A DNA stretch of 45,937 bases from Magnetococcales bacterium (GTDB lineage Bacteria; Pseudomonadota; Magnetococcia; Magnetococcales; JADGBX01): the NCBI GenBank assembly GCA_015231265.1, contig JADGBX010000008.1, positions 1-45,937 on the forward strand. The letters are read 5' to 3'. Below are positions 21,915-45,937 of this stretch, piece after piece; position 1 is the stretch's first letter; each line of letters starts with the position of its first letter. A program made the position numbers and the translations under genes. Under the pieces are notes generated by a model. The model was given only the letters and a program-made list of their open reading frames with translations. It had not been told where the DNA came from and made no database searches.

Positions 21915-21915
21915 A

Positions 21916-26602: not shown

Positions 26603-26603
26603 C

Positions 26604-27740: not shown

Positions 27741-28570
27741 ATACAGACGTCACCACTTCCCCCACCCTTCGCAACGGCCCCTCGCCAGATGAGCCGGTCT
27801 TGTGGGAGGGTAAAGGTCTGGACTATGAACGCTTTGCCATGGATAAACTCTTTCGGCGACTGGTAAGCGAATACTCCATCTCCTCGGTGCTGGAACTTCC
27901 CGCCAAAGGAGAGAAAGCGATGCCATCGCTCTACTCGCTACCCTTTGCCGCTGCTGGATGTCGTGTCACTCTGGCCAACCCGGTGAAGCGCTCCCTTTGG
28001 GCATGGCATCGGTTGAACCTCCCTTTCCATCAGGTCAACTGTCCGGATATCTCTGCAACTGGACTGTCGGACGCCTCCCATGATCTGGTGTGGAACTTCA
28101 TGACTCTTGCTCAATCCCGACACAAGGAAGCCTTGATCAGAGAGATGGTTCGACTGAGTCGGCGTCATGTGATGATCATTGCCGTCAATCGTTTTAATCC
28201 CGGTTTTTTTGTTCACCGATTGGTGCATCGATTCAGTGGTGTTCCCTGGACCCACGGTGATGTGCCGTTCATGAACCCATTTCACACTGCCCGTTTTCTG
28301 CGCGAGCAAGGACTGACTGTGCGTACCGTCGGTGTGGTGGATACACCTCCCTACCCCGATTCTCTGGGATTTCGTGACATGAAGCTCCACAAGATGAACA
28401 TCGACCTGAACGCCGCCAACTGGGACAGCCGCACCCTCGATTGGATGGAACGCGGAACATATCCTTTAAAACTACACCTGCTCTATCTTGCCGAACGTTT
28501 ACCACTGCCACTCATAATTAAGATGTTTTACGCGCATCTCTTCTATGTTCTGGCTGAGAAGCCTGTTTAA
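27737..28570 (+). CDS. Probable SAM-dependent methyltransferase, diverged
   Basis: This 277-aa protein has the outline of a Rossmann methyltransferase: VLELPAKGEKAMPSLY where motif I is expected, VTLANPVKRSL for the acidic loop region, DASHDLVWNFMTLAQS and MVRLSRRHVMIIAVNRFN. The canonical GxGxG is replaced by PAKGE, so SAM binding is not certain. The C-terminal ~60 residues contain LHKMNIDLNAANW and a hydrophobic end. It overlaps the GT4 gene by 4 nt and is followed after 10 nt by a radical SAM gene. It could act as a partner of that enzyme or be an inactive relative. Confidence 0.6.
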   Translation: MNTDVTTSPTLRNGPSPDEPVLWEGKGLDYERFAMDKLFRRLVSEYSISSVLELPAKGEKAMPSLYSLPFAAAGCRVTLANPVKRSLWAWHRLNLPFHQVNCPDISATGLSDASHDLVWNFMTLAQSRHKEALIREMVRLSRRHVMIIAVNRFNPGFFVHRLVHRFSGVPWTHGDVPFMNPFHTARFLREQGLTVRTVGVVDTPPYPDSLGFRDMKLHKMNIDLNAANWDSRTLDWMERGTYPLKLHLLYLAERLPLPLIIKMFYAHLFYVLAEKPV

Positions 28571-28580
28571 AGGTATTGCC

Positions 28581-31227: not shown

Positions 31228-32996
31228 CGAAGACCCTCGAAGAGTCGCTTCAGACGCCCACTCCACTTGCGATAGCGCTGTTTAAGAATTCGACGTGCAT
31301 CGGCTATGGGACTATGCCCCCACTTCACTTTCAGGATGAAATCTATCCACAGATCGTTGCCAAAGACTTCCACACGTGGCAGCTGAAAAACGTTTTGTCC
31401 CGGTTCACAGCGGCCACGATCAACCGTGAAAGCGGCCCGGAATCCTCCTTTGGCCACCTCAGAAACCGCTTGGCGATTGTAACAACCATATGGATAGGCA
31501 AGAAAACGGACCGGTTGGCCAGTGACTTCGGCAAGCGCTCTCCTACACGGAATGATCTGGTCTCGTATGGCATCGGTATCTTCAGTATCCAAACGATCAT
31601 GATCAACACCGTGTGCTTGGAATGAGACCCGCTCTCCGTACTCATCCTGAAGTGTCCTGATGGTATCGGCACTCATCAATGGCAGATCAGGTGCGCTATC
31701 TATCCAGTCGCTGACCCCTCCCATTCTACCAGTATTGATGAAATGCGTGTGGGGCACTCCCCTCTTTTCCAACCAAGGAGTAACGGTGGTTGCAAGGGTC
31801 TCGTAACCATCATCGAAGGTGATGACGACTGACCGCTCCGGTAGAGAATCACCTCGCTCAAGATAGTTCAGAAGTGCATCCAATCCAATAACCTGATAGC
31901 CACTTTCCTTCAGCCACCGTATCTGACGGCGAAAACGTGACGTCGCCAACTGATAGAGTCGAAACGACCATCGCCTACGATCAGTCACGTCATGGTAACA
32001 AAGAATCGTCACCGGTTGCGGACGAAAGCGGGTCCATCCCTCACCCGCTTCTCCACGAACACCGTGCCAGAATGCCACATCCCGTGCCAGACGATAGAGT
32101 GCGGCACTCACACGCCTTAATCCGAGAAATTCCGATACGGAAAGCAGCGTGCGAATTAGGGAGTCTATTCGTCCGAAATCCTGTCCACCTCCATCGAACA
32201 GCCACCCTCGCACCCAGTTTCGCAGCCTGGAATGCGGGTCAATCACAAAGGGGGAAAAACACCATATCGTATCGGGATGATCGTGACAGAGACGCACGTA
32301 TGTACAACCGTACAGCTTAGATTCACGGATAGAATCCATGAATCCCTTAAGATGTGTGGTATGGACCACTGCGTCCGTGATGTAGAGAAATCTCACCCCG
32401 TGTTGAGACAAACGCCAAGCCAACTCTCCATCCGTGTCGGTAAGAGCACGCAGATCAACATTGAACCCATCTACTTTGTCCAGAGTTGCCTTCTGCAGGG
32501 AGAAGTGCCCTCCTGACAAATCGTACTGTTCCAGTTCGCTCTTCTCGACACGACATGCTCTGTGAAATCGAGCCAGACGTTCCGCCTCGTACCTCTTGTA
32601 AGGCGTGTTTACCACACTTGGATCGGCCAGAATCACACCTTGCCCCCAACACATGGGGTGAGCTTGGTGGAATCGTCGATGGGCTGCAATCAGACCGGGA
32701 GTGACCACCATATCATCATCAAGGCTGAGTATGATCTCACCTTGCGCCAGAGAGTTACCCCTGTTGCGTGCTGCAGAGAGTCCTGAACGCTCCTGAACTA
32801 CGTAACGGAAGGGATATGATGAACTCCAACTTTCTAGAAACGTTTCGGTATCGTCACTGGAACCGTCCACAACAACGATTACTTCGAACCCATCCTCTTT
32901 CACTAATGTCAGGGAAACGAGACATCGCTCCAACAATTCCCGCCTGTTGTAGGTGGGAATGACGATGGAAAGATCACTGGTGGTATCCACGCTCAT
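31224..32996 (-). CDS. Fused family 2 glycosyltransferase and NodB-type deacetylase
   Basis: This 590-aa protein joins two enzymes. Residues ~8-260 form a GT2 domain with IVIPTYNRRE (11-20), VVVDGSSDD (41-49), AARNRGN (75-81) and a DDD metal motif (93-95). Residues ~325-570 form a NodB-type deacetylase with TILCYHDV (330-337), TFDDGY (393-398), QAHGVDHDRL (460-469, H462 and H466) and AYPYGCY (500-506), all key metal residues present. The natural reading is coupled transfer of an N-acetyl sugar and its deacetylation. The ATG at 32996 overlaps the upstream GT2 stop (ATGA). A further upstream in-frame ATG would run 114 bp into that gene and is unlikely. The stop overlaps the flippase start. Confidence 0.87.
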   Translation of the reverse strand: MSVDTTSDLSIVIPTYNRRELLERCLVSLTLVKEDGFEVIVVVDGSSDDTETFLESWSSSYPFRYVVQERSGLSAARNRGNSLAQGEIILSLDDDMVVTPGLIAAHRRFHQAHPMCWGQGVILADPSVVNTPYKRYEAERLARFHRACRVEKSELEQYDLSGGHFSLQKATLDKVDGFNVDLRALTDTDGELAWRLSQHGVRFLYITDAVVHTTHLKGFMDSIRESKLYGCTYVRLCHDHPDTIWCFSPFVIDPHSRLRNWVRGWLFDGGGQDFGRIDSLIRTLLSVSEFLGLRRVSAALYRLARDVAFWHGVRGEAGEGWTRFRPQPVTILCYHDVTDRRRWSFRLYQLATSRFRRQIRWLKESGYQVIGLDALLNYLERGDSLPERSVVITFDDGYETLATTVTPWLEKRGVPHTHFINTGRMGGVSDWIDSAPDLPLMSADTIRTLQDEYGERVSFQAHGVDHDRLDTEDTDAIRDQIIPCRRALAEVTGQPVRFLAYPYGCYNRQAVSEVAKGGFRAAFTVDRGRCEPGQNVFQLPRVEVFGNDLWIDFILKVKWGHSPIADARRILKQRYRKWSGRLKRLFEGLR

Positions 32997-33904
32997 TCCG
33001 AATTCCATTTCCAACCACGATATCCCCGCACCATGCCCAGTATCCACTGTCCATGACGCTGTACTCGCTCCCATTTTCCACATGCTGCATTCCAAGGCAA
33101 CGCAGCGCAACGGACAATCAGGTGGGGTAGAAACACTCTAAAAAAGGGGTATCCATCTCCCATGATCCAGTTCTTCGCAGCCCAAGCCCCGAACCCCTCA
33201 CCGTGGCGATGGTCATTCTCTGCCCGTTCTCTATCGTTCCGCCACGGCAGGTGGGCGATACGAATAGAAGGAGCGTAGGTAATGGCCTCTCCTTGTTTTA
33301 ATATCCGGTAGAGAATGTCTCCATCCTCTGCCCCTGGAAAACGAGAACCCTGCCCCAATTGCTCATCGAAACCGCCCACCTTCTGGAGAACCGACTTCAT
33401 AAAAAAAGAGTTGCCCCCGTTGGGACTACGGTACCAGGGATTGCTCCGACCTTTGATGGTGATGGAACGCGTTCCTTTTTCAGTCAATTCGGTCAAACTG
33501 GACAGTGCATCGGGACCATGATGTACATCACCGATCCAGGCTACCGAATTGGGATGGTGCAGCTTGGCAATGCAGGCTTGTTGAAGCCAGTCGGGAGGAG
33601 AGATGCAGTCATCGTCGATGAAGGCGATCACCTCCCCCTTGGCCTGCCTGATACCCACGTTTCGTGCCCGTGAAAGTCCCTTTTCCGAAGAGGGCAGGTA
33701 ACTCAAAAGTTCCGCTTCGAACTGCATCACTATCTCACGGCTCTCCGTTCCACTGCTCTGATCCACAACCAGAATCTCCTCTGGTGCCGGATCCAATTCC
33801 AGGAGCGCTAATAACGCCTGACGCAGCAGTTCAGGACGATCCCTTGTCGGCACTACGACGCTTACCGCACTTTCATCTCGACTGCGTGTACTATGGCGCC
33901 ACAT
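32993..33904 (-). CDS. Family 2 glycosyltransferase
   Basis: This 303-aa protein starts at an ATG (33904) with GGAGAG about 9 nt upstream; an in-frame ATG at 33973 lacks a ribosome site. Motifs: VSVVVPTRDRPELLRQAL, EILVVDQSSGTESRE, GLSRARNVGIRQAKGEVIAFIDDDCI (DDD) and GAEDGDILYRIL (ED base motif). It aligns with the divergent GT2 at 34211 (both have PEEIIxVDQS and similar ends), so the two are paralogues flanking a miniature element. It heads the minus-strand operon GT2 / GT2-deacetylase / flippase. Confidence 0.86.
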   Translation of the reverse strand: MWRHSTRSRDESAVSVVVPTRDRPELLRQALLALLELDPAPEEILVVDQSSGTESREIVMQFEAELLSYLPSSEKGLSRARNVGIRQAKGEVIAFIDDDCISPPDWLQQACIAKLHHPNSVAWIGDVHHGPDALSSLTELTEKGTRSITIKGRSNPWYRSPNGGNSFFMKSVLQKVGGFDEQLGQGSRFPGAEDGDILYRILKQGEAITYAPSIRIAHLPWRNDRERAENDHRHGEGFGAWAAKNWIMGDGYPFFRVFLPHLIVRCAALPWNAACGKWERVQRHGQWILGMVRGYRGWKWNSE

Positions 33905-33998
33905 CTTGTAATACTCTCCGAATATACCGGGAATATGGATTCCACTGGCAACATCGACTGCACGAACATACACTGATTCTTAGAAAATGCAGTGACAC

Positions 33999-34184
33999 TA
34001 GGGCGTGTTGACATTCAGCCCATATCCGCGCTGGCTTGGCGCCAGTCCTTCGGGTTCGGTCTGAAAAAGCGTCATGCTGCCTTGTTCATCACCCATTTGG
34101 CTGTGCCAAACCGTACTTCTCATCTCTTACCTACTGCATTTTTAGCCACAAACGCGGATCTGATCCGGTTGAGAATATGCTCTA
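33999..34184. mobile_element. 186-bp TA-flanked miniature element, copy 2 (inverted)
   Basis: This stretch aligns end to end with the reverse complement of 3933-4118, about three quarters identical by eye, and has the same length. The left end TAGGGCGTGTTGACATTCAG has diverged from the other copies, and the right end GAGAATATGCTCTA is degraded, but the core (CGCGCTGGCTTGGCGCCAGTCCTTCGGGTT..., CATTTGGCTGTGCCAAACCG, GCCACAAACGCGGAT) is clear. It fills the space between two divergent GT2 genes and so could carry or disturb their promoters. Confidence 0.7.
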
Positions 34185-34210
34185 GGTGGTTCGATTCAGG
34201 AGTGTAGCAC

Positions 34211-35134
34211 GTGACGACAGCCGGAACATCCAGGGACAAAGGTGCCTCCATCCCCACGATTTCAGTTGTGATTGCCACGTATCAGCGCCCGGAACTGCTG
34301 CATCACTGTCTGCAATCGATCCTTGAGAACAGCCTTCTCCCCGAAGAGATTATCATTGTGGATCAGAGTGAAGATTCCCGCTCGCGCCACGTCGTTGAAC
34401 GCTTCGGAACAACAGAGCCTCCCATTCGCTATGTACACTCCTCACCACCCAATAAATCCATAGCGCTTAATACGGTGATTCCACACTGCATAGGTGACTT
34501 TCTTGCCCTCACCGATGATGATGTGACTGTTGATCGAGAGTGGTTGAACACCTTCCTCTCTCTCTATGCACACTCCCCTGATATCGATGTCTACTACGGT
34601 CGCATGCTCCCCCAACCAGGCACCTCTCCGGACACCTATGTGAATCTCATTGTCGAAGAGAAACCACACACTGTGGAACCATTGCGCACTCCGCTCTATC
34701 CTCATTTTACCGGAGCGAATTGTTTCATGCGTCGCAGTCTCTGCCTCAAAGCGGGCCTTTTCAATCCCCACTTCGGTCCCGGCGCTCCTCTCAGCAACAA
34801 CGATGATGGTGAGATGGGTTATCGACTCGCCCGTTTCGGTGCTCGCATGCGCTTTGAACCTACGCTTAAGATCTTCCACGCTCCCTGGCGGAGTCCTCTG
34901 GACAACCAAGCACTCATGAAAGAATACGCCTTCAGCATCGGCGCTTTCGCCGGATACACCCTACGACAGGGTGACACCTGTCCAAGTCGTCATCTTCTTA
35001 TGAGACTCCTCGCCAAAGCGCGTCGGGTCCTGGTCGGGATTCTTCTGTGGCAATCCCATCGTGTGCAGGACGGGATCATACACCTCAAGGCCTTTTCATC
35101 TGGCTTTCTTCAAGGATGGGGCTACAAGACATGA
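34211..35134 (+). CDS. Family 2 glycosyltransferase
   Basis: This 307-aa protein begins at a GTG (34211) with no clear Shine-Dalgarno; no in-frame ATG precedes the conserved domain. It has ISVVIATYQRPELLHHCL, PEEIIIVDQSEDS, SPPNKSIALNTVI, FLALTDDDVTVD (DDD metal motif) and NNDDGEMGYRLARFG (base region). It is a paralogue of the divergent GT2 at 32993-33904. It overlaps the methyltransferase start by 4 nt (ATGA). Only 27 bp separate it from the miniature element upstream, so its promoter probably lies in or before that element. Confidence 0.83.
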   Translation: MTTAGTSRDKGASIPTISVVIATYQRPELLHHCLQSILENSLLPEEIIIVDQSEDSRSRHVVERFGTTEPPIRYVHSSPPNKSIALNTVIPHCIGDFLALTDDDVTVDREWLNTFLSLYAHSPDIDVYYGRMLPQPGTSPDTYVNLIVEEKPHTVEPLRTPLYPHFTGANCFMRRSLCLKAGLFNPHFGPGAPLSNNDDGEMGYRLARFGARMRFEPTLKIFHAPWRSPLDNQALMKEYAFSIGAFAGYTLRQGDTCPSRHLLMRLLAKARRVLVGILLWQSHRVQDGIIHLKAFSSGFLQGWGYKT

Positions 35135-35889
35135 GAGATCCCGCATCACGATTCTATCAACAGGTTGAGGTGTTGCGTGCTCGAGTCCGAACTCTGGCTG
35201 GAACCTCCACGGGACACGCACTGGATATCGGGTGTAAAAAAGGGGATGTTTCTTCCGCACTGGCCAAAACCATGCGCTGTGTGACGGCGCTTGACCCCTA
35301 CCCTCATCCTGACTGGCAGGTTCTGCAAGAGACGCACTCAAACCTCAATTTTGTTCAGGGAGATGGCCAGAATCTTCCTTTTTCCGATGCTTCTTTTGAA
35401 CGGGTAGTCGCCTGTGAGTGCCTGATGTATATGGATCCCGACCGAACCTTGAAAGAGTGCCACCGCGTCCTGAAACCAGACGGTCTTCTCGTGGTGACCT
35501 TTCCTGAGGCGGGACCAATAACCCAGGCTATAGATCCCTATAATCTTGAGAGATTATTTATAAATGTCATCCTGCCGGGACGAGTCTCCCATCGACAGAA
35601 AGCACATCACCTGAAAAGCAGTACTCTGCTGGACGCTGCTTCTGACAACGGCTGGCAACTCGAGCATATGGAACGCCGTGGATCGATCCTCTTTATCTAT
35701 CTTGCTTGGTGGATCGACCGTCTTCAGATCAGGCATCTACCGGAGGACTCCCCGCTACGTCATCTGGCTGCACAGGTGACTTTACCAGTACTCAAACTAC
35801 TCTTTTTTGCCATGCGTATGGACTGCACTCTCCGCTTTGGACCACTCTCATATAACACCATAATAGTTCTAAAAAAATCAAACACATGA
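35131..35889 (+). CDS. Class I SAM-dependent methyltransferase
   Basis: This 252-aa protein has motif I ALDIGCKKGDVSSAL (30-44), CVTALDPYPHPDW as the acidic region, LPFSDASFERVVACECLMYM and HRVLKPDGLLVVTFPEAG. The GxG element reads GCKKG, a common variant. A hydrophobic stretch near the C-terminus may bind the membrane. The start is set by the ATGA overlap with the GT2 gene. The pair GT2/methyltransferase could add and cap a sugar. No terminator hairpin is evident between it and the pilin promoter at 35926. Confidence 0.83.
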   Translation: MRDPASRFYQQVEVLRARVRTLAGTSTGHALDIGCKKGDVSSALAKTMRCVTALDPYPHPDWQVLQETHSNLNFVQGDGQNLPFSDASFERVVACECLMYMDPDRTLKECHRVLKPDGLLVVTFPEAGPITQAIDPYNLERLFINVILPGRVSHRQKAHHLKSSTLLDAASDNGWQLEHMERRGSILFIYLAWWIDRLQIRHLPEDSPLRHLAAQVTLPVLKLLFFAMRMDCTLRFGPLSYNTIIVLKKSNT

Positions 35890-35955: not shown

Positions 35956-36064
35956 GTACGGTGGGTCGTTGGCTTTTCTCCGCCGCTCTATTTCAACCGG
36001 CGCGATCTATTAATATCTATTTGTAAGCGCTCTTTTCTGTTCTCACTGCTCAGTGGAGGTATCG

Positions 36065-36487
36065 ATGCTCCGCCACAGAAGGTCTCAAGAGAGTGGATTC
36101 ACCATAACGGAATTGGTGATGGTGATTGTCATCCTGGGCATTCTCTCCATAACCATCCTCTCTTCCAACCCTACTGACACCGCCTCCATGATGGAGGTTG
36201 AGCAGCTTGTTCAGGCAATCCGGCAAGCACAAGCCGGTAGTCTTGACGACACATCTGGATACAACATTCGCTACCTCAGCAGCTCCAGCTTCGAGGTCAG
36301 AAACAACAGCAACACGACACTCTCTACTATCATCCTTGATCAAGCCACGGTCTCTAACTTTGGCACCATCACCTTCGACGGCTACGGCGAGCCGGACAAT
36401 CCGAGCACCATTACCATCACCGGCTCCGGTAGCTCTACGGCCCAGGTTCGCGTCACACAGGAGACCGGCTATGCCGATATTCTCTAA
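36065..36487 (+). CDS. Type IV pilin-like minor pilin (MshC/GspH-like)
   Basis: This 140-aa prepilin has a short basic leader ending in G11 and the processed start FTITELVMVIVILGILSI, with Glu at position +5 of the mature chain. This is a prepilin-peptidase substrate that would join a pilus or pseudopilus tip in the inner membrane. The C-terminal region is beta-rich. A strong GGAGG sits ~7 nt before ATG 36065 (an upstream in-frame ATG at 36053 lies inside the ribosome site). It is the first of four minor-pilin genes in the same order as mshC, mshD, mshO, mshP of MSHA loci. It overlaps the next gene by 17 nt. Confidence 0.8.
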   Translation: MLRHRRSQESGFTITELVMVIVILGILSITILSSNPTDTASMMEVEQLVQAIRQAQAGSLDDTSGYNIRYLSSSSFEVRNNSNTTLSTIILDQATVSNFGTITFDGYGEPDNPSTITITGSGSSTAQVRVTQETGYADIL

Positions 36488-36968
36488 CTTCGGTCCGGAT
36501 GCCGTATCTAATCACTATCGAGATGAGATACGGCATCACTACAACTCTGAAGAGCGTACCAGACAAGCCGGTGTTACCCTGATCGAGTTGATTATTTTCC
36601 TCGTTCTTTTAGGCATCATAGTTTCATCTCTCAGCACCGTTATGTTCACCACCATGAAGGATCCGCTCCTGGCCAGGAAAATCCACCAAGCAAGCCTGCT
36701 CATCCAGGAGGTCACCGAAGAGATCACCTATGAATACAACAAACTCACACCAACTCAGACCCTCAGCAATATGAAGAGCTTCTCTGATGACACACCGGTC
36801 TCTGGTTTCTCGGAGTTCAACCGTACGATATCGGTCAACACCAATCCCGGGAAACCTCCCTGTCCTGCATCAACCTGGACTCAGTGTTGGGTTTTCTCGA
36901 TCGCAGTGACCGACAGCACCACCGGTGATACGTATGGCTCCATGACCATGACACCCCTGATCAAATAG
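36471..36968 (+). CDS. Type IV pilin-like minor pilin (MshD-like position)
   Basis: This 165-aa prepilin has an unusually long leader (34 residues) ending in G34, then VTLIELIIFLVLLGIIVSSLS with Glu at +5 (E39). Cleavage after Gly before Val is less usual but tolerated. A CPASTWTQCW segment gives two cysteines that could form a disulfide. AGGAG ~7 nt upstream supports ATG 36471; the frame is open further upstream but there it only shadows the previous gene. Its order after a GspH-like gene fits mshD. Confidence 0.75.
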   Translation: MPIFSNFGPDAVSNHYRDEIRHHYNSEERTRQAGVTLIELIIFLVLLGIIVSSLSTVMFTTMKDPLLARKIHQASLLIQEVTEEITYEYNKLTPTQTLSNMKSFSDDTPVSGFSEFNRTISVNTNPGKPPCPASTWTQCWVFSIAVTDSTTGDTYGSMTMTPLIK

Positions 36969-36981
36969 AGCGAGAGATCCC

Positions 36982-37455
36982 ATGCTCAACACATCCATTC
37001 ACCGAAAAGGTGACCGGGGATTCAGCCTGATTGAAATGGTGATTGTTATCATGCTGCTCGGTATTCTGGGTGGAGTTCTGGGAAATCTTGTGGTTCCTAT
37101 GGTCAACTCCTTTATACTTTCCCGCCTCATTTCCTCCACCGACACCGTTAACCGCATTGCTGTGAAACGCATGGCACTGGAGTTGAAACACGCTTCTGCC
37201 GTCTCCACCACATCTTATCCCACCTCAGACATCCAGTTCACCAGCGATAGCAAGACTATCCGTTATTACAGCAGCGGTTCCAATCTGATGCGTCAGGAGG
37301 ATGGCGGCACTGCCCGTCTGATGTCAGAAAGCATCTCCACGCTCCAGTTCAGTTCCGATGGCAACTACATCCAAATCAGTATCTCAAACACCGACGTCAA
37401 CTTACTATTGCGCACGCGTATTTATCCGAGAAATGTCAGTCTGCCATTTATGTGA
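36982..37455 (+). CDS. Type IV pilin-like minor pilin (MshO-like)
   Basis: This 157-aa prepilin has leader MLNTSIHRKGDRG, cleavage after G13, and mature start FSLIEMVIVIMLLGILGGVLGNLVVPMVNSF with Glu +5 (E18). The pattern with IVIMLLGILG resembles MshO/PilW-like minor pilins. It lies 13 nt after the previous stop. A small ribosome site (GAGAG) precedes it. Together with its neighbours it could form a tip complex, but no major pilin, ATPase, platform or secretin gene is in the window. Confidence 0.77.
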   Translation: MLNTSIHRKGDRGFSLIEMVIVIMLLGILGGVLGNLVVPMVNSFILSRLISSTDTVNRIAVKRMALELKHASAVSTTSYPTSDIQFTSDSKTIRYYSSGSNLMRQEDGGTARLMSESISTLQFSSDGNYIQISISNTDVNLLLRTRIYPRNVSLPFM

Positions 37456-37524
37456 TGGCTACAGCGATGGAAAACCGGTACACTGGTACAGTGCGGGTGT
37501 GGGGACAGGATGGAGGACTAATTG

Positions 37525-38055
37525 GTGAAAAAGATGCGCTCACAAAGAGGTTCACTTTTAATTTCAGCCATTATTCTTCTGGTGATGGGTGGCATAGTGA
37601 CTGCTGCCATGGTGAAGATGTCTGAAGTGAACACATCCACCACCGTTGAGAACTACCAAGCTGCAAAAGCTTTCAATCTGGCTGAGGGTGGCATTAAGTG
37701 GGCCGTGGGGTCTGTACAGGCTGTTGGCTGTGATCTATCGCAACTCGACTCTTCTGACGGCACCTTCACAACATCAGGTGGTAGTAGTGCTGGCTCTGGT
37801 GACTCCGGTGATTCTGGTGGATCCGGCACCGTAACAAATCCCAACAATGACGGCGACTCCTTCTCCTTCAGCCAAGTTACTTCTGCTGATGGTACTTTCC
37901 AGGTCGACACGACCGTCGTCAGCGACTCCTTTCTGTTTGAGGCGACTGGCAGCGCCAGTGGTAATACCCGTTCCATTGAGCAAACGTACACCTTCGACGA
38001 TCTCTGTAACTCCTCAACGTCGGCCTCACCGACGGGGTGGAAGGAATCGCTCTAG
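37525..38055 (+). CDS. PilX/MshP-like pilus assembly protein, 3' end altered by a repeat
   Basis: This 176-aa protein has a short basic N-terminus (KKMRSQRGSLLISAIILLVMGGIVTAAMVKMSEVN), the PilX/MshP-type hydrophobic helix without a Glu +5, followed by YQAAKAFNLAEGGIKWAV, a typical PilX motif. A Gly/Ser/Asp-rich repeat (SSAGSGDSGDSGGSG, ~92-106) is a flexible linker. GTG 37525 with GGAGG (37512-37516) 8 nt before is preferred over TTG 37522 and ATG 37534. The stop TAG (38053-38055) lies within the start of the miniature-element core at 38054, so the C-terminus may be truncated, and the mshQ-like gene expected next is absent. Confidence 0.75.
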   Translation: MKKMRSQRGSLLISAIILLVMGGIVTAAMVKMSEVNTSTTVENYQAAKAFNLAEGGIKWAVGSVQAVGCDLSQLDSSDGTFTTSGGSSAGSGDSGDSGGSGTVTNPNNDGDSFSFSQVTSADGTFQVDTTVVSDSFLFEATGSASGNTRSIEQTYTFDDLCNSSTSASPTGWKESL

Positions 38056-38113: not shown

Positions 38114-38130
38114 TGAAGTGCCGTGTGATT
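38114..38130 (+). repeat. Recombination-like motif copy 2
   Basis: TGAAGTGCCGTGTGATT starts 33 bp before the integrase-fragment stop codon (plus-strand coordinate 38147). The copy at 45471 has the same 33-bp distance to the stop of the right-edge integrase. Confidence 0.55.
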
Positions 38131-38146
38131 GGATCCTGTCTTTAGC

Positions 38147-38361
38147 CTAATACCGCACCACAAAACTCGCACTCTCCCGATGATGCATGGCACGCTTGTC
38201 GTACATTTGCGTGGTTGAGATATGGGCATGCCCCACGGAGCGTTGGACTGCTTCGATGGGGCATTTCTGTTCCAGGGCTTGGGTGATGAATGTTGCCCGT
38301 GCGGTGTGTAGGGTAACGCCTTTGGGGAGTCCAGCTTTTATGGCGTATTTATGAAAGGTTT
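38147..38361 (-). pseudogene. Truncated integrase 3' end, direct repeat of 45504-45718
   Basis: This 215-bp stretch is about 93% identical by eye to the integrase 3' end at 45504-45718, in the same orientation. It encodes the conserved HTARATFITQAL and GHAHISTTQMYDKRAM region and the true stop, but nothing upstream: homology stops at 38361, where an IS630-type fragment begins. It is a non-functional remnant that can act as a recombination site for the homologous copy. Confidence 0.85.
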
Positions 38362-38600
38362 ACCGATGATGAGCGTTCAATGCTCACCGACATAGTGAAC
38401 AAGGGTAAGGCAGCGGCTTGTAAGATTAAACATGCAAATAGCCTATTGAAAGTAGATGAGAATGGGCTCAGATGGACCGATTCCAAAACTGCTGAGGCAT
38501 TCTCCTGTACCAAGCATACTGTAGCCAACATCCGTCAGAGATATGTTCAACTGGGCACTAAAGCTGCTCTGAGGCGAAAAACGAGGAAAAAGTGGTCGCT
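38362..38600 (+). pseudogene. IS630-type transposase N-terminal fragment
   Basis: The frame reads LTDDERSMLTDIVNKGKAAACKIKHANSLLKVDENG, then WTDSKTAEAFSCTKHTVANIRQRYVQLGTKAALRRK, the N-terminal helix-turn-helix of IS630-family transposases. The start codon and terminal repeat are missing at the left, where it abuts the integrase fragment, and similarity is lost after about residue 75-80. The frame stays open to 38832 but the rest is not transposase-like. It is a relic. Confidence 0.75.
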
Positions 38601-38835
38601 ATCAACTGATCAAACCAATTCCTGCGGAGAGGAATTTACAGCAGATTTCGGACGTGACCTTGCCATATTCCCACTGAACCAGAACACCGCCCTCTGTCAG
38701 CAGTGCTTGACGCAGGCTGTTCCTTTCATTTACAAACAACAATCGTGTACGACATGGTCTTTTTCTTTCTGCTCTCCACTGTTCATATTGCGTTGTGGAT
38801 CTGGCAATCCATTATTGAAAAAAAGGGTGTGATTG

Positions 38836-39903
38836 ATGCTTATTTCAATGGGGGACCGCCAGGTTGGTGCCGGCGAACCAGTCTATCTCGTTTTTGAAGC
38901 AGGTCCGACTCACTATGGTCTGGAATCGGCAATGACCTTGGCCACGATGGCAAAAGAAGCTGGAGCCGATGCCATCAAGTTTCAAATAGCAGATCACAAA
39001 CGCCTAATTACCACAAAGGATCTCCCTTTTTCCTACGGTATTCTTACCGATCGGGACAGTGGTACGATTGAGACGGTGACCGAGCCGCTGATTGACATCT
39101 GGGAGCGTCGTTTCCTCTCCAGGGATGAATGGTCTTCACTCAAGGCGCACTGCGACACACTGGGCATTAACTTCTTTGCCACTGTTTTTTTTGAGGAGGA
39201 TGTCGAATTCCTGACCGAACTAGGGGTTCACTCTTTCAAGATCGCCTCCCAGGATATCGCCCACATGGATCTGATCCGCTACTGTGCTGGCAAACAGATT
39301 CCCATCCAAATCGATACGGGAAACGCTACCATCGGTGAGGTGGAACGTGCCGTGGACTGGATACGCGATGAAGGCAACGAAAAGATCATCATCAACCACT
39401 GCCCATCCGGTTATCCGGCTCGCACGGAGAGCATCAATCTACGTGTGATTCGCACTCTGAAGGAGATGTTCCCCTATCCTGTCGCTTTCTCCGATCACAC
39501 GCCTGGATGGGAGATGGATATTGCAGCCCGCGCTCTAGGGGCCGATATCATTGAAAAAACGATTACTCTGGATCGCACCATTCGCAGTTGCGAACATGTC
39601 ATGTCCCTGGAGCCTCCAGAGATGCCTGTGTTTATCAAGGCGATGCGGGAACTGGAGATCGCTCTCGGAAACTCCAGGTGCATTGTGACCCAGGAGGCGC
39701 GTGATTCTCGGGAGTCGGTCCGACGCAGCGGCTTTCTCGTCAGACCGGTGAAAAAGGGGGAACGGCTACAACGCAGTGACTTCGATCTTCGCCGTCCAGG
39801 TCACGGCGTGCTCAAGACTGACGACTACTTCCACTATCTAGGACGTACTTTTAGCCGGGATCTTCCGACAGAGCACATGGTGACGGTGGATGATCTAGAG
39901 TGA
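38836..39903 (+). CDS. NeuB-family nonulosonic acid synthase-like protein
   Basis: This 355-aa protein has the NeuB layout: an N-terminal TIM barrel with AGADAIKFQIADHKRL (42-57), DTLGINFFATVFFEEDVEFL, VHSFKIASQDIAHMDLI, CPSGYPAR, VAFSDHTPGWEMDIAARALGADIIEKTITLDR, and a C-terminal SAF (antifreeze-like) domain with RRSGFLVRPVKKGERLQRSDFDLRRPGHGV. NeuB enzymes condense phosphoenolpyruvate with a six-carbon amino sugar to make sialic, legionaminic or pseudaminic acid. The usual N-terminal AEIGxNHNG reads FEAGPTHYG (20-28), a divergent form. ATG 38836 is preferred (an ATG at 38848 is possible). No NeuA or NeuC is in the window. The substrate is unknown. Confidence 0.85.
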   Translation: MLISMGDRQVGAGEPVYLVFEAGPTHYGLESAMTLATMAKEAGADAIKFQIADHKRLITTKDLPFSYGILTDRDSGTIETVTEPLIDIWERRFLSRDEWSSLKAHCDTLGINFFATVFFEEDVEFLTELGVHSFKIASQDIAHMDLIRYCAGKQIPIQIDTGNATIGEVERAVDWIRDEGNEKIIINHCPSGYPARTESINLRVIRTLKEMFPYPVAFSDHTPGWEMDIAARALGADIIEKTITLDRTIRSCEHVMSLEPPEMPVFIKAMRELEIALGNSRCIVTQEARDSRESVRRSGFLVRPVKKGERLQRSDFDLRRPGHGVLKTDDYFHYLGRTFSRDLPTEHMVTVDDLE

Positions 39904-39969
39904 ATATGGATTGCTTCCCCTGCCTTATACGTCAACTGAAAGCTTGTCCACTGTAAAGAGAGATGCGCC

Positions 39970-41292
39970 ATGACTCGTGTCGCAGACCAAGATTCCGCTT
40001 CCCCCCTTGAGCTAAGTCGCTCCAACGCTTTGTGGCCTGAGACCATTAAGGCAATTCCTGCTGGCGTACAGACCTTCTCAAAAGCGCCTTCACAGCATGT
40101 TGAGGGGGTATCACCTTGTTACACGGTCAAGGGAAAAGGGTGTCGGAGTTGGGATCTAGATGACAACATCTATATCGACTATATGATGGGATTGGGGCCA
40201 ATTGTTCTGGGTTTTGCTGATGAAGAGGTAAATCGAGCAGCAATGGAAGGTATGTCGCTGGGTGTGGTTGCCTCGTTGGCTCACCCGTTGGAGACTAAGC
40301 TTTCACAAAAACTTATCGAGCTTATACCGTGCGCCGAGATGGTCCGCTTCGGTAAGAATGGTACCGATGTCACCTCTGCTGCCGTTCGAGCTGCCAGGGG
40401 ATTTACCAAACGGAATAAAGTCGCCGTGTGCGGCTATCACGGCTGGCAGGACTGGTATATCGGCTCCACCCCACGCAACATGGGAGTTCCCGAGAGTATC
40501 CAGGCGCTCACACTTAAGTTTCAGTATAATAATATTAAATCACTGCATGCGCTCTTCCAGAAACATCCTGGAGAGATTGCGGCCGTTATTATGGAACCGG
40601 TCAACTTCTACGAACCCGAAGATGATTTTCTATCCAAGGTTAAGGAGTTAACGCACAAAAATGGTGCGCTACTGGTGTTCGATGAGGTGATTACCGGTTT
40701 CCGCATGAATATTGGTGGTGCACAGAAGGAGTATGGCGTCACTCCGGATCTCGCCTCCTTTGGCAAAGCGATGGCCAACGGATTCCCCATCTCCGCCGTG
40801 GTGGGACGGTCTGACGTGATGGAGATATTCGACAAGGTGTTTTTCTCTGCCACCTTCGGAGGGGATCTTCCATCCATAAGCGCAGCACTGGCCACTATCG
40901 AAGCAATGGAACAGCGGCAGACACTCAGCCATATACATGCTATGGGAGCACGCCTCAAAACAGGCTACGCTTCTATCGTCCAGTCACTGGGTATTGAGAA
41001 GATAACAAGAATGATCGGTTTTGACTGGTGGCCGGAATATCTATTTTTTAATACCGAAGGGAAAGCATCCAGAGAGATTCAATCCCTCTTTCAGCAAGAG
41101 ATCGTGCGGCGGGGTGTTTTGACACGGGCTGGCATGATGCTCTGTGGAGCTCACCAAAAAGAAGATATCGACCAGACACTTCACGTGTTCGAACAGGCCC
41201 TCTTTGTGGTGAAGGATGCCGTGCGTACTGAGAGTGTCCTAGAACGTCTCGATGGTCCTGTCATTCAACCTGTTATCCGCAAGGTGGATTGA
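39970..41292 (+). CDS. Class III aminotransferase, glutamate-1-semialdehyde aminomutase-like
   Basis: This 440-aa PLP enzyme has the class III pattern: RSWDLDDNIYIDYMMGLGPIVLG, CGYHGWQDWY (154-163), VIMEPVN, LLVFDEVITGFR (234-245, D238) and the PLP lysine K266 in ASFGKAMANGFPISAVVG. The fold is that of HemL, but the context is not tetrapyrrole synthesis. It follows the NeuB-like gene by 66 bp on the same strand and probably shares its transcript. It may install an amino group on a sugar or on a C9-type acid. Residues beyond ~400 are unusual and may define a subgroup. Convergent with the minus-strand GT-B-like gene, whose stop lies 3 bp away. Confidence 0.88.
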   Translation: MTRVADQDSASPLELSRSNALWPETIKAIPAGVQTFSKAPSQHVEGVSPCYTVKGKGCRSWDLDDNIYIDYMMGLGPIVLGFADEEVNRAAMEGMSLGVVASLAHPLETKLSQKLIELIPCAEMVRFGKNGTDVTSAAVRAARGFTKRNKVAVCGYHGWQDWYIGSTPRNMGVPESIQALTLKFQYNNIKSLHALFQKHPGEIAAVIMEPVNFYEPEDDFLSKVKELTHKNGALLVFDEVITGFRMNIGGAQKEYGVTPDLASFGKAMANGFPISAVVGRSDVMEIFDKVFFSATFGGDLPSISAALATIEAMEQRQTLSHIHAMGARLKTGYASIVQSLGIEKITRMIGFDWWPEYLFFNTEGKASREIQSLFQQEIVRRGVLTRAGMMLCGAHQKEDIDQTLHVFEQALFVVKDAVRTESVLERLDGPVIQPVIRKVD

Positions 41293-41295
41293 CCG

Positions 41296-42441
41296 TTACT
41301 CTCTCAGTAGTGGTGCAATATCAGCTCGGTGTCCGAGGTTTTTCTCATAGTCTGGTTGCCGATAGTGACCGGCCATGCAGTCGTCTATGGCCTCTGAAAG
41401 ATCCTCCAGGTTCTCGGCAAGTGGATGTTTCAGACGCAAATAAACAGATTTATCCGGATGACGCCGCAACCAATGGGGTGTGAACTCCTGAAACTGAATG
41501 GTCGGCGTGCCGCTTGCTATGGCATCAAGCAGGACACCGGAGTGCAGACCAACGATCAGATCCGACCTGGTAGCAATTATCGAAGCGTGGAGATAACAGA
41601 GAACAGCTCGGTTATCTCCGATCTGTTCTAATATCTTCTCCAGATGCTCTCTCTTACTCATGGGGTGCGGTTTAAGAAGAATCAGAGCATTGGGATACTT
41701 TTTTCGTACCAGAGGTACAGTGATCTCAATCCACGTATCCAATTCTTCAAGATTATAGATTCCCTTCACCCACGATCCCAGAAATAGCGACACGACCTGG
41801 CTCTTAGGATCAAAGCCAAGTCGCGTAATCTCCTTCTCCATCATCTTGGGGGCCACCTCTCTGATCCGATCAAGCCAGCCCGGATAGAGCCGTGGGTAGC
41901 CAATAGCAGCTACCGGATGATTTAACCCGTACTTTTCCAGTAGATGCAGATCATTCATGCTGTAACAGGCAAAGAGGTCGGAAGCATTCTTATTTTCCAC
42001 AATATCGACCATTATACTGTCACGTAGCAATCCAAGGGCCGGGGGATGTTGCACCACCCAACCACCTCTGAAACGGGCAATCGCACTCATCCAGCGAACG
42101 GTGCGAGAATCAGGTGAACTGCCATAGAACAGAATGGGCGCTTTTGTCGCAAGAAGACGAATGAGCGAAGGGATCAAACAGACCAACGCCATCAGATACC
42201 GCAACACCTCTATACCCGGTTTACCCCAACTGTAGAGGTGCGAAATAGAATCGCAAACTCGCAAAGTTTCTTGGTAAAGAAAAGGATCCCGCTTCAATTT
42301 AGAATAGACGCTTGGCTCGATAAACAGGAGATGAATCTTGGCATCAGGGTGGTCTCGTCTGATTTCAAGATAGATGGGCAATAGAACGTCAAGTCCTCCA
42401 AGACGCGGAGGTATGATGGAGAAAATAGTTGGTGAGGTCAT
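41296..42441 (-). CDS. GT-B-like protein of surface-carbohydrate type
   Basis: This 381-aa protein shows a GT-B-like split: an N-terminal part with IFSIIPPRLGGLDVLLPIYLEIRRDHPDAKIHLLFIEP and a C-terminal part with LILLKPHPMSKREHLEKIL, RSDLIVGLHSGVLLDAIASGTPTIQFQEFTPHW. The latter resembles the capsular/surface carbohydrate biosynthesis proteins and CDP-glycerol-type transferases. A nucleotide-sugar or nucleotide-alcohol transferase role is likely but not proven. The start ATG 42441 lies 4 nt after the upstream radical SAM stop (42446); a start further up would overlap it. It is the last gene of a three-gene minus-strand operon. Confidence 0.65.
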   Translation of the reverse strand: MTSPTIFSIIPPRLGGLDVLLPIYLEIRRDHPDAKIHLLFIEPSVYSKLKRDPFLYQETLRVCDSISHLYSWGKPGIEVLRYLMALVCLIPSLIRLLATKAPILFYGSSPDSRTVRWMSAIARFRGGWVVQHPPALGLLRDSIMVDIVENKNASDLFACYSMNDLHLLEKYGLNHPVAAIGYPRLYPGWLDRIREVAPKMMEKEITRLGFDPKSQVVSLFLGSWVKGIYNLEELDTWIEITVPLVRKKYPNALILLKPHPMSKREHLEKILEQIGDNRAVLCYLHASIIATRSDLIVGLHSGVLLDAIASGTPTIQFQEFTPHWLRRHPDKSVYLRLKHPLAENLEDLSEAIDDCMAGHYRQPDYEKNLGHRADIAPLLRE

Positions 42442-42445
42442 TGGG

Positions 42446-43408
42446 CTAGGCTGATTTGGAAATAATCTCGATACTGTGGCTCCAACGATCCGCAATATCT
42501 GGATTGAGAGGTTCAATGGGATCTTGAACACTATTGAGACAGCGGTAACAGAGCGTTCCTTCCAAATTCTTCTCTAGATGACGGCGACGGAACTCTGTAG
42601 TCCGTTCACTGTAGAAAGCCTCTTTCAAGCTCATCTGATTGAGATCCTCAACGGCTAGGAAGTTTTCCATATCACCACAACACATGCGCAGATACCCTTC
42701 TGCTGTGACGTAAATGCGGGTGAAAGGCAGTTTACAGTTTTCCGAAATAAAGGTGTCATATTCGATCATCTGACCACTCTGGTTATCGGCTGGAACAACA
42801 AGCACTTCATCAACCAAATGACCGATAAGAGGTTCCAAATGGGTGATTGACTCCTCGTTCTGAGGCAAACTGACTGAAGAAACTCCAAGGAAAAAATCAT
42901 ACTTTTTCTTAAGTTTCGAAAGATGTTTGATGCTGGCAATCACCTGATCGAAATGATCACGACGGTGCACCTTCTTGTAGGTCTCCCGATCACCGGCATT
43001 GATACTGATCTTGACGCTCTCCAGACCCGCCTCTATGAATTGATCCCACCGCGATAGCTTTTTCTGAGTCACCATACCGTTTGTGGTCAAAAACACATAG
43101 TCGTAGTTCAGCTCTTGCTTTGCAATACGGATGAATGCGTCCAGATTTGGATGCATCAAGGGCTCCGCTCCAGCAGCAAAGGAGATCACACGTGACCCCT
43201 CTTCATACGCTTCCGTCATGATGCGCCGGCCAAACTCAAGATCCATCCGCTTTTTGGAACGCTTCATAGTATTAATGAAGCAGAAAAGGCAATCCTGATT
43301 GCAGGAGTTAGCCACTTCCAACTGAATCTGCTTGGGCCAGGAAGGGTGAAGGGAACATTGCGTACGGCTCTGCTTTTTCTTCAGAGCGCGCTTAAGTCGT
43401 GACGCCAT
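42446..43408 (-). CDS. Radical SAM/SPASM-type enzyme
   Basis: This 320-aa protein has CX3CX2C at C36, C40, C43 (NSCNQDCLFCF) and a variant GGE-like motif FAAGAEPLMHPNL. The C-terminal half has CKLPFTRIYVTAEGYLRMCCGD and LCYRCLNSVQ, a SPASM-like auxiliary cluster-binding set. The N-terminus is very basic (SRLKRALKKKQSR). ATG 43408 with AGGAG ~9 nt upstream is preferred over ATG 43456. Family members modify peptides, sugars or cofactors; here it lies between a B12-radical-SAM gene and a GT-B-like gene. The substrate is not known. Confidence 0.85.
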   Translation of the reverse strand: MASRLKRALKKKQSRTQCSLHPSWPKQIQLEVANSCNQDCLFCFINTMKRSKKRMDLEFGRRIMTEAYEEGSRVISFAAGAEPLMHPNLDAFIRIAKQELNYDYVFLTTNGMVTQKKLSRWDQFIEAGLESVKISINAGDRETYKKVHRRDHFDQVIASIKHLSKLKKKYDFFLGVSSVSLPQNEESITHLEPLIGHLVDEVLVVPADNQSGQMIEYDTFISENCKLPFTRIYVTAEGYLRMCCGDMENFLAVEDLNQMSLKEAFYSERTTEFRRRHLEKNLEGTLCYRCLNSVQDPIEPLNPDIADRWSHSIEIISKSA

Positions 43409-43568
43409 GGGAGATGGCTCCTGTCTATTGTGAGACGCATCAGATCTGGACCACAAACGATACGTATGAGCGTCTGTATATGCGATCCGCTATCTACGAA
43501 GAATACACATGGCATCACACGCAAAGACAAGGACCGTTTACAGCTAAAAAGAAAATGAAACGTCTCTC

Positions 43569-45104
43569 TCAAGAACCCATATCAGGGGCGTGTTTAGGAG
43601 AAGATTGAGAAGAGATATTGGTCGTAGCCGCCTTGGTCAATGCAGTCGCTTTTGCCGCTCTGGAGTAGTTGGTCGGTCGCCGCCACTGACTGTAATAATA
43701 ATAGACGGGATTCATAAAATCCTTGTAGCGCAGATAGCGGAAAAGATACTTAGGATGGGTAACAAGATACCAGAGATAGTTGCGCATCACCTTACGTGAT
43801 GATTCATGAAGAAGATCCGACAACTCCTGATCGGACATATCAGTGAAGTTGAAACGGAACTTGTACGGTCCGGTACCATCACCCAGAGACTCCAGATAGC
43901 TCAACTCATCGCTTATCGTTCCGTTGGCCACGCACTCATTGTAGAGCGGACTACCGGGATAAGGGGTGACGTAGTGAAACTTGGTGCCAGGAAAACCGAC
44001 ACGTTTCAACATGTCGATGGTCTCCTGTACTGTTTCCCGTGTCTCTCCAGGATAACCAAGAATCAGACCAATCGATGTGGGTAGTCCCACCTCAAGAGTC
44101 TCACGCATGGTGCGTTCGATCCGCTTCGGCGTGATCTTCTTGTGCATGCGCTTGAGAATCTCGGCACTGGCCGTTTCCACACCGTAACCTATGGTAAGAC
44201 AACCGCTCTTGGAAATGAGGGTAAGAAGCTCCTTGTCCACAGTATCAATGCGGGCGTTTCCATACCAACCCATCTTCATTGGTGCAACTTTTTCACAGAA
44301 CTCGCGGGTGTACTTTTTACTAAAGAAAAACAGCTCATCGACAAAGTTGATGATGGTGATCCCGTACTTCTCCTTAAGTAACGTCATCTCTTCCATCACA
44401 TTCTCGATGGAGCGCTTGCGAATACTCTCGAACATCTGGGTGCAATATCCGCAGACAAAAGGGCAGCCGCGACCAGACATCACTGCCATAACCCGGTGTT
44501 CCTGACCTTTTGGAAGTTTCGGCAGATATTTTGGAGACATGTAGATATCGGTTTTGAGAAACTCCGAGTACTCATCCATATCCACAAGATCGTAGGCAGG
44601 AAAAGGGACTGAATCGAGATCCTGGATCAGTTCACGGGGAGATGTTGAACGGGTCACTTCCCCGTCGCGATAGACAATCCCCTTCACTTGGCCAAGTTTG
44701 TCCATGTTGTTGAGAAGATCAACAATGGTCAGCTCTCCTTCGCCGATGACACAGATATCTACATCACTATTCTCAACCACCAATGTCGGGCTGTGGGAGG
44801 CAAGCTGTCCGCCAAGAATGATCGGTTTTGCGTACTTTTCCTTGAGCCAGGATGCCAACTTCTTGACAAAGACATACTCGAAACTGATGGCGGTCAGGCC
44901 AAACATGTCTGGATTGAAACGTTCGATACTCTGCGCCACACTCTCCATGTCCACATTCTCTTTGGAAAGATCCATAATCTGGACTTCATGACCTGACTCA
45001 CGCAAAACAGCAGCAATGTAGGCAAGTCCTAACGGGAATGTTCCGTAGGGATTTTTCTTACCATTTGAGTGGTTAGGACGAATGAGAAGTACGCGATATG
45101 CCAT
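43569..45104 (-). CDS. B12-binding-domain radical SAM protein
   Basis: This 511-aa protein has an N-terminal B12-binding-like Rossmann domain (YRVLLIRPNHSNGKKNPYGTFPLGLAYIAAVLRESGHEV, then GLTAISFEYVF and IILGGQLASHSP) and a radical SAM core with CX3CX2C at C214, C218, C221 (GRGCPFVCGYC), NFVDELFFFSKKY, GYGVETASAEILKRMHKKIT and GLILGYPGET. Proteins of this group include methyltransferases and ring-modifying enzymes. The DxHxxG motif is absent, as in most such radical SAM members. ATG 45104 with AGAGGA ~10 nt upstream is preferred over ATG 45194. It heads the minus-strand operon (gap of 160 bp to the next gene). Confidence 0.87.
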   Translation of the reverse strand: MAYRVLLIRPNHSNGKKNPYGTFPLGLAYIAAVLRESGHEVQIMDLSKENVDMESVAQSIERFNPDMFGLTAISFEYVFVKKLASWLKEKYAKPIILGGQLASHSPTLVVENSDVDICVIGEGELTIVDLLNNMDKLGQVKGIVYRDGEVTRSTSPRELIQDLDSVPFPAYDLVDMDEYSEFLKTDIYMSPKYLPKLPKGQEHRVMAVMSGRGCPFVCGYCTQMFESIRKRSIENVMEEMTLLKEKYGITIINFVDELFFFSKKYTREFCEKVAPMKMGWYGNARIDTVDKELLTLISKSGCLTIGYGVETASAEILKRMHKKITPKRIERTMRETLEVGLPTSIGLILGYPGETRETVQETIDMLKRVGFPGTKFHYVTPYPGSPLYNECVANGTISDELSYLESLGDGTGPYKFRFNFTDMSDQELSDLLHESSRKVMRNYLWYLVTHPKYLFRYLRYKDFMNPVYYYYSQWRRPTNYSRAAKATALTKAATTNISSQSSPKHAPDMGS

Positions 45105-45503
45105 GGATGGGAATCCTCTTTTTACTGGTCGGGATCCTAGATAACGAGGCGTCGATGGAGATATATGATCATATTCAAGATGCTCTCTTTCCAATACACA
45201 CAGAAACGGACAATCACACTCCGACCGCAGAAAGGATCACAGACATCAACCATTTTGACGAAAAACGCCAGCAAGCATGTAATTCAATTGAAACTGTCAA
45301 CGCAATAAAAATGGATCTCACTATATTGTCAGGTCGGGAGGATGTCACCTAGAAAACAGAACTGGATCTGTCCTGGTTCAGCGGGAACATGACAATCGCC
45401 AACATTAAACGATCGGGTATCAGACCGGCGTGAAGTACCGTGTGATTATATTCCGACTATGAGCTATCTATGAAGTCCCGTAAGATCAGGATGCGTTCTT
45501 GGT
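45105..45503. other. Gene-free 399-bp stretch at the right junction
   Basis: Only recombination-like motif copies (45431-45464 and 45471-45487) are recognised here. A plus-strand frame of 84 codons (45098-45352) overlaps the start of the radical SAM gene and is not supported. The promoter of the minus-strand operon should lie here; TTGACA on the minus strand (45300-45295) is the best -35 seen, but the -10 is weak. Confidence 0.55.
45431..45487 (+). repeat. Recombination-like motif copies 3 and 4
   Basis: TGAAGTACCGTGTGATT starts a 34-bp stretch (45431-45464) that matches 7534-7567 at 31 of 34 positions. A second, more diverged copy TGAAGTCCCGTAAGATC starts exactly 40 bp later at 45471, which is 33 bp before the integrase stop, the same spacing as at 38114. 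Confidence 0.55.
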
Positions 45504-45937
45504 CTAATACCGTACTACAAAACTCGCACTCTCCCGATGATGCATGGCACGTTTGTCGTACATTTGCGTGGTTGAGATATGGGCATGCCCCACGGAGCGT
45601 TGTACCGCTTCGATGGGGCATTTCTGTTCCAGGGCTTGAGTGATGAATGTTGCCCGTGCGGTGTGGGGAGTGACGCCTTTGGGGAGGCCGGCTTTTTTGG
45701 CGTATTTGTGGAAGGTTTTCCAGGCCTGGGTATTGGTGAGAGCGCGATGAGGATCGGGGTTGCGCACGCGCAGGATGATGTAAGCTTTGGGGTCGTTACC
45801 GTGGCCTGCTGTATCCAGATAGCGCCTGAGGGCAATCTGGAGTTCTGTATGGATGGCAATCTGGTTCTGTTTACCGCCTTTAATCTTGAAGTCCAGCACC
45901 CAGTAGCCGCCATCTTCATAAAAATCCCGCACCCGCA
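45504..45937 (-). CDS. Tyrosine-family integrase, C-terminal part at the window edge
   Basis: The frame runs off the right edge, so the N-terminal core-binding domain is missing from this window. Visible are the Arg-region WVLDFKIKGGKQNQIAIHTELQIALRRY, the HTARATFITQAL box (HxxR), VGHAHISTTQMYDKR (last His and the nucleophile Tyr) and a normal C-terminus. This is the catalytic domain of an XerC/integrase-type recombinase. Its 3' 215 bp are directly repeated at 38147-38361. Its likely att-like motif lies 33 bp beyond the stop. If the molecule is circular, the 5' part would have to continue from position 1, but I do not see an in-frame N-terminus there, so the edges may not join. Confidence 0.88.
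   Translation of the reverse strand, partial: RVRDFYEDGGYWVLDFKIKGGKQNQIAIHTELQIALRRYLDTAGHGNDPKAYIILRVRNPDPHRALTNTQAWKTFHKYAKKAGLPKGVTPHTARATFITQALEQKCPIEAVQRSVGHAHISTTQMYDKRAMHHRESASFVVRY

Follow-up and report, generated by a model that had tools for sequence, protein, structure and literature searches.

A five-gene block near one end of a Magnetococcales contig raises the question of whether it encodes a new route to an amino sugar or a piece of a known one. The block combines a NeuB-like protein, a class III aminotransferase (AT3), two radical SAM proteins, and a putative GT-B-like protein, and a first-pass annotation of the DNA had read these as a possible new nonulosonate or amino-sugar pathway. 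The window, that is, the whole stretch of DNA analyzed (45,937 bp), is an entire contig of a genome assembly that is 80% complete and broken into 459 contigs. The block was compared with the rest of this genome and with related loci elsewhere.

Organization of the Block and Its Genomic Setting

All five open reading frames are intact, full length, and free of frameshifts. The forward strand carries the gene for the NeuB-like protein with its C-terminal SAF domain (38836..39903; ATG start at 38836, with an in-frame TTG at 38833) and that for AT3, a PLP aminotransferase of HemL-like fold (39970..41292; Aminotran_3, 163 bits). On the reverse strand lie the genes for the putative GT-B-like protein (41296..42531), a radical SAM/SPASM protein (42446..43456; Radical_SAM 76.9 bits, SPASM 31.8 bits), and a B12-binding radical SAM protein (43569..45194; B12-binding 73.4 bits, Radical_SAM 70.6 bits), the Pfam domain matches bearing out the two radical SAM assignments made at first pass. 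An internal ATG of the B12-type frame at 45104 is the end coordinate given in that annotation. The five genes had been described as sharing one module, a description that their orientation does not bear out: the three reverse-strand genes are transcribed toward the NeuB-like gene and AT3, and the AT3 and GT-B-like frames converge with their stop codons 3 nt apart.

Both edges of the block bear traces of mobile elements. Directly upstream of the NeuB-like frame ends the remnant of an IS630-like transposase, of which only the N-terminal HTH part is left (38380..38832, forward strand; HTH_23 22.3 bits; 15.7 bits against the IS630 model NF033545, under its cut-off of 100), and the promoter region of the NeuB-like gene is IS-derived. 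The block is also flanked by 251-nt direct repeats, 88% identical, both of which represent the 3′ end of a tyrosine recombinase gene. Copy 1 lies at 38114..38364 (reverse strand; blastn 93% over 215 nt) and copy 2 at 45471..45721 (reverse strand), where it overlaps a tyrosine recombinase frame (45504-45935; Phage_integrase 69.4 bits) that runs to the contig end. Since these repeats bracket the five genes, the block may have moved in, or been reshuffled, as one piece; it does not follow that its genes serve a single pathway.

Just left of the integrase repeat, positions 36053-38055 hold a row of small frames with type IV pilin- or pseudopilin-like N-termini. A polysaccharide cluster occupies 16194-35889, with glycosyltransferases, flippases, an epimerase, and polysaccharide-deacetylase-like and PMT-like proteins; no gene common to this cluster and the block was seen.

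The window contains no NeuA, as the first-pass annotation had said. Other contigs of the genome account for this: their NeuA-like genes, one next to a DegT gene at the end of contig C77 and another on C222, indicate that NeuA is lacking from the window and not from the cell. The genome also encodes three more NeuB proteins and, on contig C401, a PseB that scores over its cut-off, while no PseG was found in this 80% complete assembly.

A Divergent NeuB Subfamily with an Altered Active Site

The NeuB-like protein exceeds the Pfam cut-offs for both of its domains (NeuB, PF03102, 221.7 vs. 22.1 bits; SAF, 22.5 vs. 21 bits). Its best NCBIfam score, 243.1 bits against the N-acetylneuraminate synthase model TIGR03569, does not reach the cut-off of 399.65, and against the PseI model TIGR03586 it obtains 201.6 bits, under the equivalog cut-off of 340.25. 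Its AF2 model has a pLDDT of 91.3, and a fold search with this model returned PseI of C. jejuni (8h2c) as the top PDB match (E 5.5e-29), followed by Neisseria NeuB, so that the likeness of the predicted structure to the NeuB family is not due to chance.

Related sequences define a subfamily of 29 members, hereafter the divergent NeuBs, about 49-57% identical to the window protein. A contig scan supplied 27 loci whose proteins are 50-56% identical to it, plus one distant locus, and searches of the order and phylum added two further genomes. When placed in a tree with 51 other NeuBs (80 proteins in all), they are set apart by a long stem and a branch with SH-aLRT support of 100. By this tree they are monophyletic, and they form a widespread and apparently undescribed subfamily; no prior description was found in the non-subscription literature searched. 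Divergent NeuBs are rare, being present in 4 of the 399 genomes sampled from the phylum, and no carriage by viruses or plasmids was found when looked for. Three of the loci come from cultured strains, namely Baaleninema simplex PCC 7105, Andreprevotia chitinilytica DSM 18519, and Bacterioplanes sanyensis KCTC 32220. Several come from metagenome bins, and the phylum label may be wrong for some. Near-identical genes occur in differently labeled bins in two cases (L011/L012, Alphaproteobacteria and Anaerolineae; L018/L021, Chloroflexi and Pseudomonadota), which reflects either misbinning or recent transfer.

The altered N-terminal motif FEAGPTHYG, already noticed at first pass, is real and marks the whole clade. 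Deeper substitutions are more telling. In Neisseria NeuB numbering, assigned by alignment, all 29 members show Asn29 replaced by Thr, Asn137 by His, Ser154 by Asp, and Asp247 by Glu, and position 236 is Thr in 28 and Ser in one. The other NeuBs retain both His236 and Asp247 in 51 of 51 sequences. His236 is reportedly a metal ligand in the structure of the Neisseria enzyme (Gunawan 2005, cited in PMC6795526), and the divergent NeuBs thus lack the second metal-ligand histidine of a canonical metal-dependent nonulosonate synthase. In contrast to these losses, E25, K53, Q55, T110, K129, S132, S213, H215, E234, and R314 are kept in every member; the PEP-site and catalytic residues K53, K129, T110, S213, H215, E25, and R314 are among them, and His215, Glu234, and Arg314 belong to the active-site residues listed in PMC6795526. 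Many subfamily-specific positions are invariant as well. The window protein is itself divergent, with Asn188 where 96% of the subfamily has His.

Comparison with characterized enzymes places these changes in context. Neu, Leg, and Pse synthases resemble one another in conserving the region around PEP and the sugar C1 (PMC7371886), and by alignment this is the region altered in the divergent NeuBs. These share the TIM-barrel plus SAF layout of NeuB/NnaB (TIGR03569; Neisseria 1xuu), from which they differ in this catalytic region and in scoring far under the family cut-off. With PseI (TIGR03586; 8h2c), they have in common fold, domains, and neighborhood (PseB, PseC-type DegT, NeuA, and PseG); unlike PseI, they fall short of its model and carry the metal-ligand His to Thr, Ser154 to Asp, and Asp247 to Glu changes, and their clusters also encode a true PseI alongside them. 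A parallel for the metal site is KDO8P synthase, another PEP-condensing TIM barrel, in which loss of one metal ligand together with nearby changes separates metal from non-metal classes (PMC3052366). The substrate differs, and the ligand lost is Cys to Asn in KDO8P synthase and His to Thr here.

A NeuB that adjoins a class III aminotransferase in Methylomagnum was considered as a further member and rejected, as it keeps His236 and Asp247. On a Methylomagnum ishizawai plasmid (L140, 7080-12692), transketolase halves, a class III aminotransferase, an SDR, a short NeuB-family protein with a normal active site, and a HAD-IIIA hydrolase are encoded in a row that looks like another amino-ketose or nonulosonate route.

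Gene Neighborhoods of the Divergent NeuBs

Gene content was assessed at 19 of the 29 loci, those well covered by at least 8 kb downstream and at least 4 kb upstream. NeuA is present at all 19, a DegT aminotransferase at 17, PseB and a second NeuB at 16 each, and PseG at 15; the typical order is PseB-DegT-divergent NeuB-NeuA-PseG-NeuB. All ten partner NeuBs tested exceed the PseI cut-off, with 436-514 bits, and three well-covered loci (L023, L026, and L067) show no second NeuB nearby. HisH, HisF, and WbuX each occur at 10 of the 19, and PIG-L or formyltransferase genes are also found next to divergent NeuBs. Because PseB, DegT, NeuA, PseG, and a PseI-grade second NeuB share these loci, the divergent NeuB appears from its neighborhoods to be an extra synthase-like gene inside Pse clusters, in many cases beside a normal synthase. 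No papers on a second NeuB in Pse clusters were found in the literature searched, which is not proof of absence.

The other members of the block are scarce at the same loci: AT3 at 2 of the 19, SPASM at one, and the B12-type radical SAM gene at none (AT3 3/29 and B12 radical SAM 0/29 over all loci). The full five-gene set was found in no other genome; the only recurrent combinations are SPASM with a divergent NeuB (genome G023) and SPASM with AT3 (G001). The first-pass annotation had named a lack of co-occurrence elsewhere as what would refute its pathway. This lack applies to the B12 radical SAM and GT-B-like genes, the SPASM gene being partly linked.

At four other Magnetococcales loci (L036, L038, L039, and L080), NeuB domains 33-36% identical to the window protein lie in frames of about 800 aa that adjoin NeuA and often an aldo/keto reductase; these are possible NeuB fusion proteins.

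The Class III Aminotransferase AT3

AT3 scores below every listed NCBIfam cut-off (best, NF004856, 404.8 vs. 486 bits; hemL, 258 vs. 527), and its alignment with 2gsa reveals a 9-residue deletion in what is presumably the substrate-gating loop of HemL. Identity with the heme enzyme HemL was rejected on the score and this deletion. Among 399 genomes, 14 hold a close homologue. Outside the window, 10 of 13 homologue loci encode AT3 together with nonulosonate genes (PseB, DegT, NeuA, PseG, or NeuB), usually with PseB and DegT, and an aldo/keto reductase is nearby at 8 of the 13. It had been proposed that AT3 takes the place of the usual DegT enzyme, a substitution that was rejected since both types co-occur at most AT3 loci. 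By this distribution, AT3 is mostly an addition to DegT in Pse-type clusters.

Such an arrangement has a published precedent in the Aeromonas group I flagellin glycosylation islands, whose Pse clusters contain a class III aminotransferase (PMC7874193). Four of the loci surveyed (L008, L123, L124, and L125) reproduce the published order of PseC, aldo/keto reductase, aminotransferase, and PseG, and L008 adds a divergent NeuB to it. The comparison with the Aeromonas aminotransferase is one of gene layout. Unlike that enzyme, the window AT3 is not encoded between PseF and PseG and has neither gene adjacent. It also branches outside the 99/97-supported clade that unites 15 AT3s of Pse clusters, so that transferring a function from these to the window protein is a guess.

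The Radical SAM and GT-B-like Genes

Close homologues of the SPASM protein occur in only three other genomes among 399. In G023, the gene follows divergent NeuB-HisH-HisF-WbuX-NeuA on the same strand; in G001, it is a near neighbor of NeuA and AT3; and in G008, the contig begins at the SPASM gene. A crude density model, for which gene numbers were assumed, puts the chance that both resolvable cases fall within 8 kb of such a gene at about 0.0002-0.002, and a nonulosonate role for the SPASM gene is thereby suggested. A large frame, which may encode a glycosyltransferase, comes after the SPASM gene in both G023 and G001, and the frame in this position differs from genome to genome. The literature searched yielded no papers on radical SAM proteins in Pse clusters, which does not prove that none exist.

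The B12-type radical SAM gene was rejected as a pathway member, given its absence from all 29 divergent NeuB loci. The contexts examined for its relatives in the order (G008 and G009) lent such a role no support, and the G008 contigs bearing the B12 and SPASM genes showed no end overlap that would make them adjacent. On two other contigs of the source genome, NeuA-like genes do have a B12-type relative no more than a few kb away. In G008, a B12 radical SAM gene is followed by a CDP-glycerol glycerophosphotransferase-like gene (L113, 250-3489), and a radical SAM gene adjoining a putative glycosyltransferase recurs in the order, with unrelated sequences.

The GT-B-like frame is intact and gives a weak NCBIfam glycosyltransferase match (NF046086) of 21.9 bits against a cut-off of 200. 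It has no Pfam match, a search of 47 further genomes from the order found no homologue, its single-sequence AF2 model is unusable (pLDDT 37.5), and hhalign comparison of the frames that follow SPASM or B12 genes in the window, G023, G001, and G008 gave nothing reliable for the window protein. Because the frame overlaps the SPASM frame by 86 nt, its true start probably lies further downstream. For the nonulosonate role envisaged at first pass, support is thus good in the case of the NeuB-like gene, present for the aminotransferase, and at the level of a suggestion for the SPASM gene; the B12 radical SAM and GT-B-like genes showed no independent linkage of this kind.

Proposed Role and Alternative Explanations

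The NeuB-like gene and AT3 are best regarded as an outlying piece of a pseudaminic-acid system and not as a free-standing new sugar pathway. Judged from sequence and gene context, the chances seem about even that the whole of the following account is right: the divergent NeuB would be a second NeuB-family synthase that serves a Pse-type pathway with altered metal use, and the block would be a detached part of such a pathway. The most likely role of the protein would be that of a metal-altered synthase for a Pse derivative. Its reaction would join PEP to a deoxyamino-aldose of six carbons, or to a sugar closely related to the PseI substrate; the resulting 3-deoxy-2-keto nonulosonate would then be activated by a CMP-sugar synthetase. 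The loss of His236, together with the replacement of Ser154, Asp247, Asn29, and Asn137, points to an enzyme that would be either metal-independent, like KDO8P synthases of the non-metal type, or equipped with a shifted metal site, for which Asp161, His144, and Glu254 (window numbering) are candidate ligands. AT3 would aminate a keto intermediate on the way to sugars of this family, and the SPASM protein would probably modify the same glycan. The block, held between integrase-gene repeats, would draw in trans on PseB, DegT, and NeuA encoded elsewhere in the genome. Several observations count against this account: 17 of the 19 well-covered loci have no AT3, and the pair is not obligatory; the genome has yielded no PseG; AT3 branches outside the main clade; the window protein is divergent within its subfamily; and the promoter region is IS-derived.

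A rather unlikely alternative is that the protein is a tailoring enzyme, joining PEP to a different and perhaps short aldehyde to build an N-acyl or other side group for Pse. The complete PseB/C/F/G/I set alongside would already make the backbone, the HisH-HisF-WbuX, PIG-L, and formyltransferase genes often found next to divergent NeuBs are themselves tailoring genes, and positions that contact the sugar differ (D141 and H144 in 29/29, and the WEMD segment). However, all 29 proteins keep the SAF domain with Arg314, a residue that reaches the sugar site in Neisseria NeuB, and NeuA follows directly in many loci, which favors a full-size ulosonate product.

The loss of a conserved catalytic histidine would also fit a non-catalytic subunit. 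NeuB enzymes form dimers in which the SAF domains are swapped, and a pseudoenzyme might bind PEP or sugar, carry out no condensation, and tune or assemble with the canonical synthase, as the subfamily-wide loss of His236 and the frequent PseI-grade partner would allow. We hold this to be unlikely, since E25, K53, Q55, T110, K129, S132, S213, H215, and R314 are invariant, the many invariant subfamily-specific positions argue for selection on catalysis, and L023, L026, and L067 offer no nearby partner.

That the block is an acquired fragment in decay, now without function in this genome, is improbable: the IS630 remnant at its 5′ edge, the truncated integrase copy, and the lack of an adjoining NeuA or PseG are what such decay would leave, but the five frames are undamaged and the PEP-site residues of the NeuB-like protein are intact. 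The new self-contained pathway of five proteins proposed at first pass is highly improbable, for although the repeats bracket the block like a mobile unit and SPASM recurs in a divergent NeuB operon (G023) and beside NeuA and AT3 (G001) with a large frame after it each time, the full set recurs nowhere, B12 radical SAM is absent from the 29 loci and AT3 from all but three, the GT-B-like protein has no homologue in the order, the strands converge, and the NeuB-like protein and AT3 each sit elsewhere within ordinary Pse-type clusters that contain DegT, NeuA, and a true PseI.

Implications for Nonulosonate Biosynthesis

Beyond this locus, the preferred reading of the divergent NeuB as a metal-altered synthase leads to a broader proposal, one that we advance tentatively and that falls short of an even chance: the subfamily may be a class of nonulosonate synthase not described before, one that either needs no metal or binds it at another place and that would make a second, unknown nonulosonate or an unknown Pse derivative in Pse producers from several phyla. 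Because cultured hosts carry these genes, the proposal is directly testable. Nonulosonates hold a key place among surface and flagellar sugars, and the sequence-based prediction of which nonulosonate a bacterium makes rests on NeuB. If the proposal is true, a recurrent, metal-altered second NeuB in Pse clusters would break such predictions and point to unknown sugars, and the sialic-acid-synthase family would gain a counterpart to the metal/non-metal split of KDO8P synthase.
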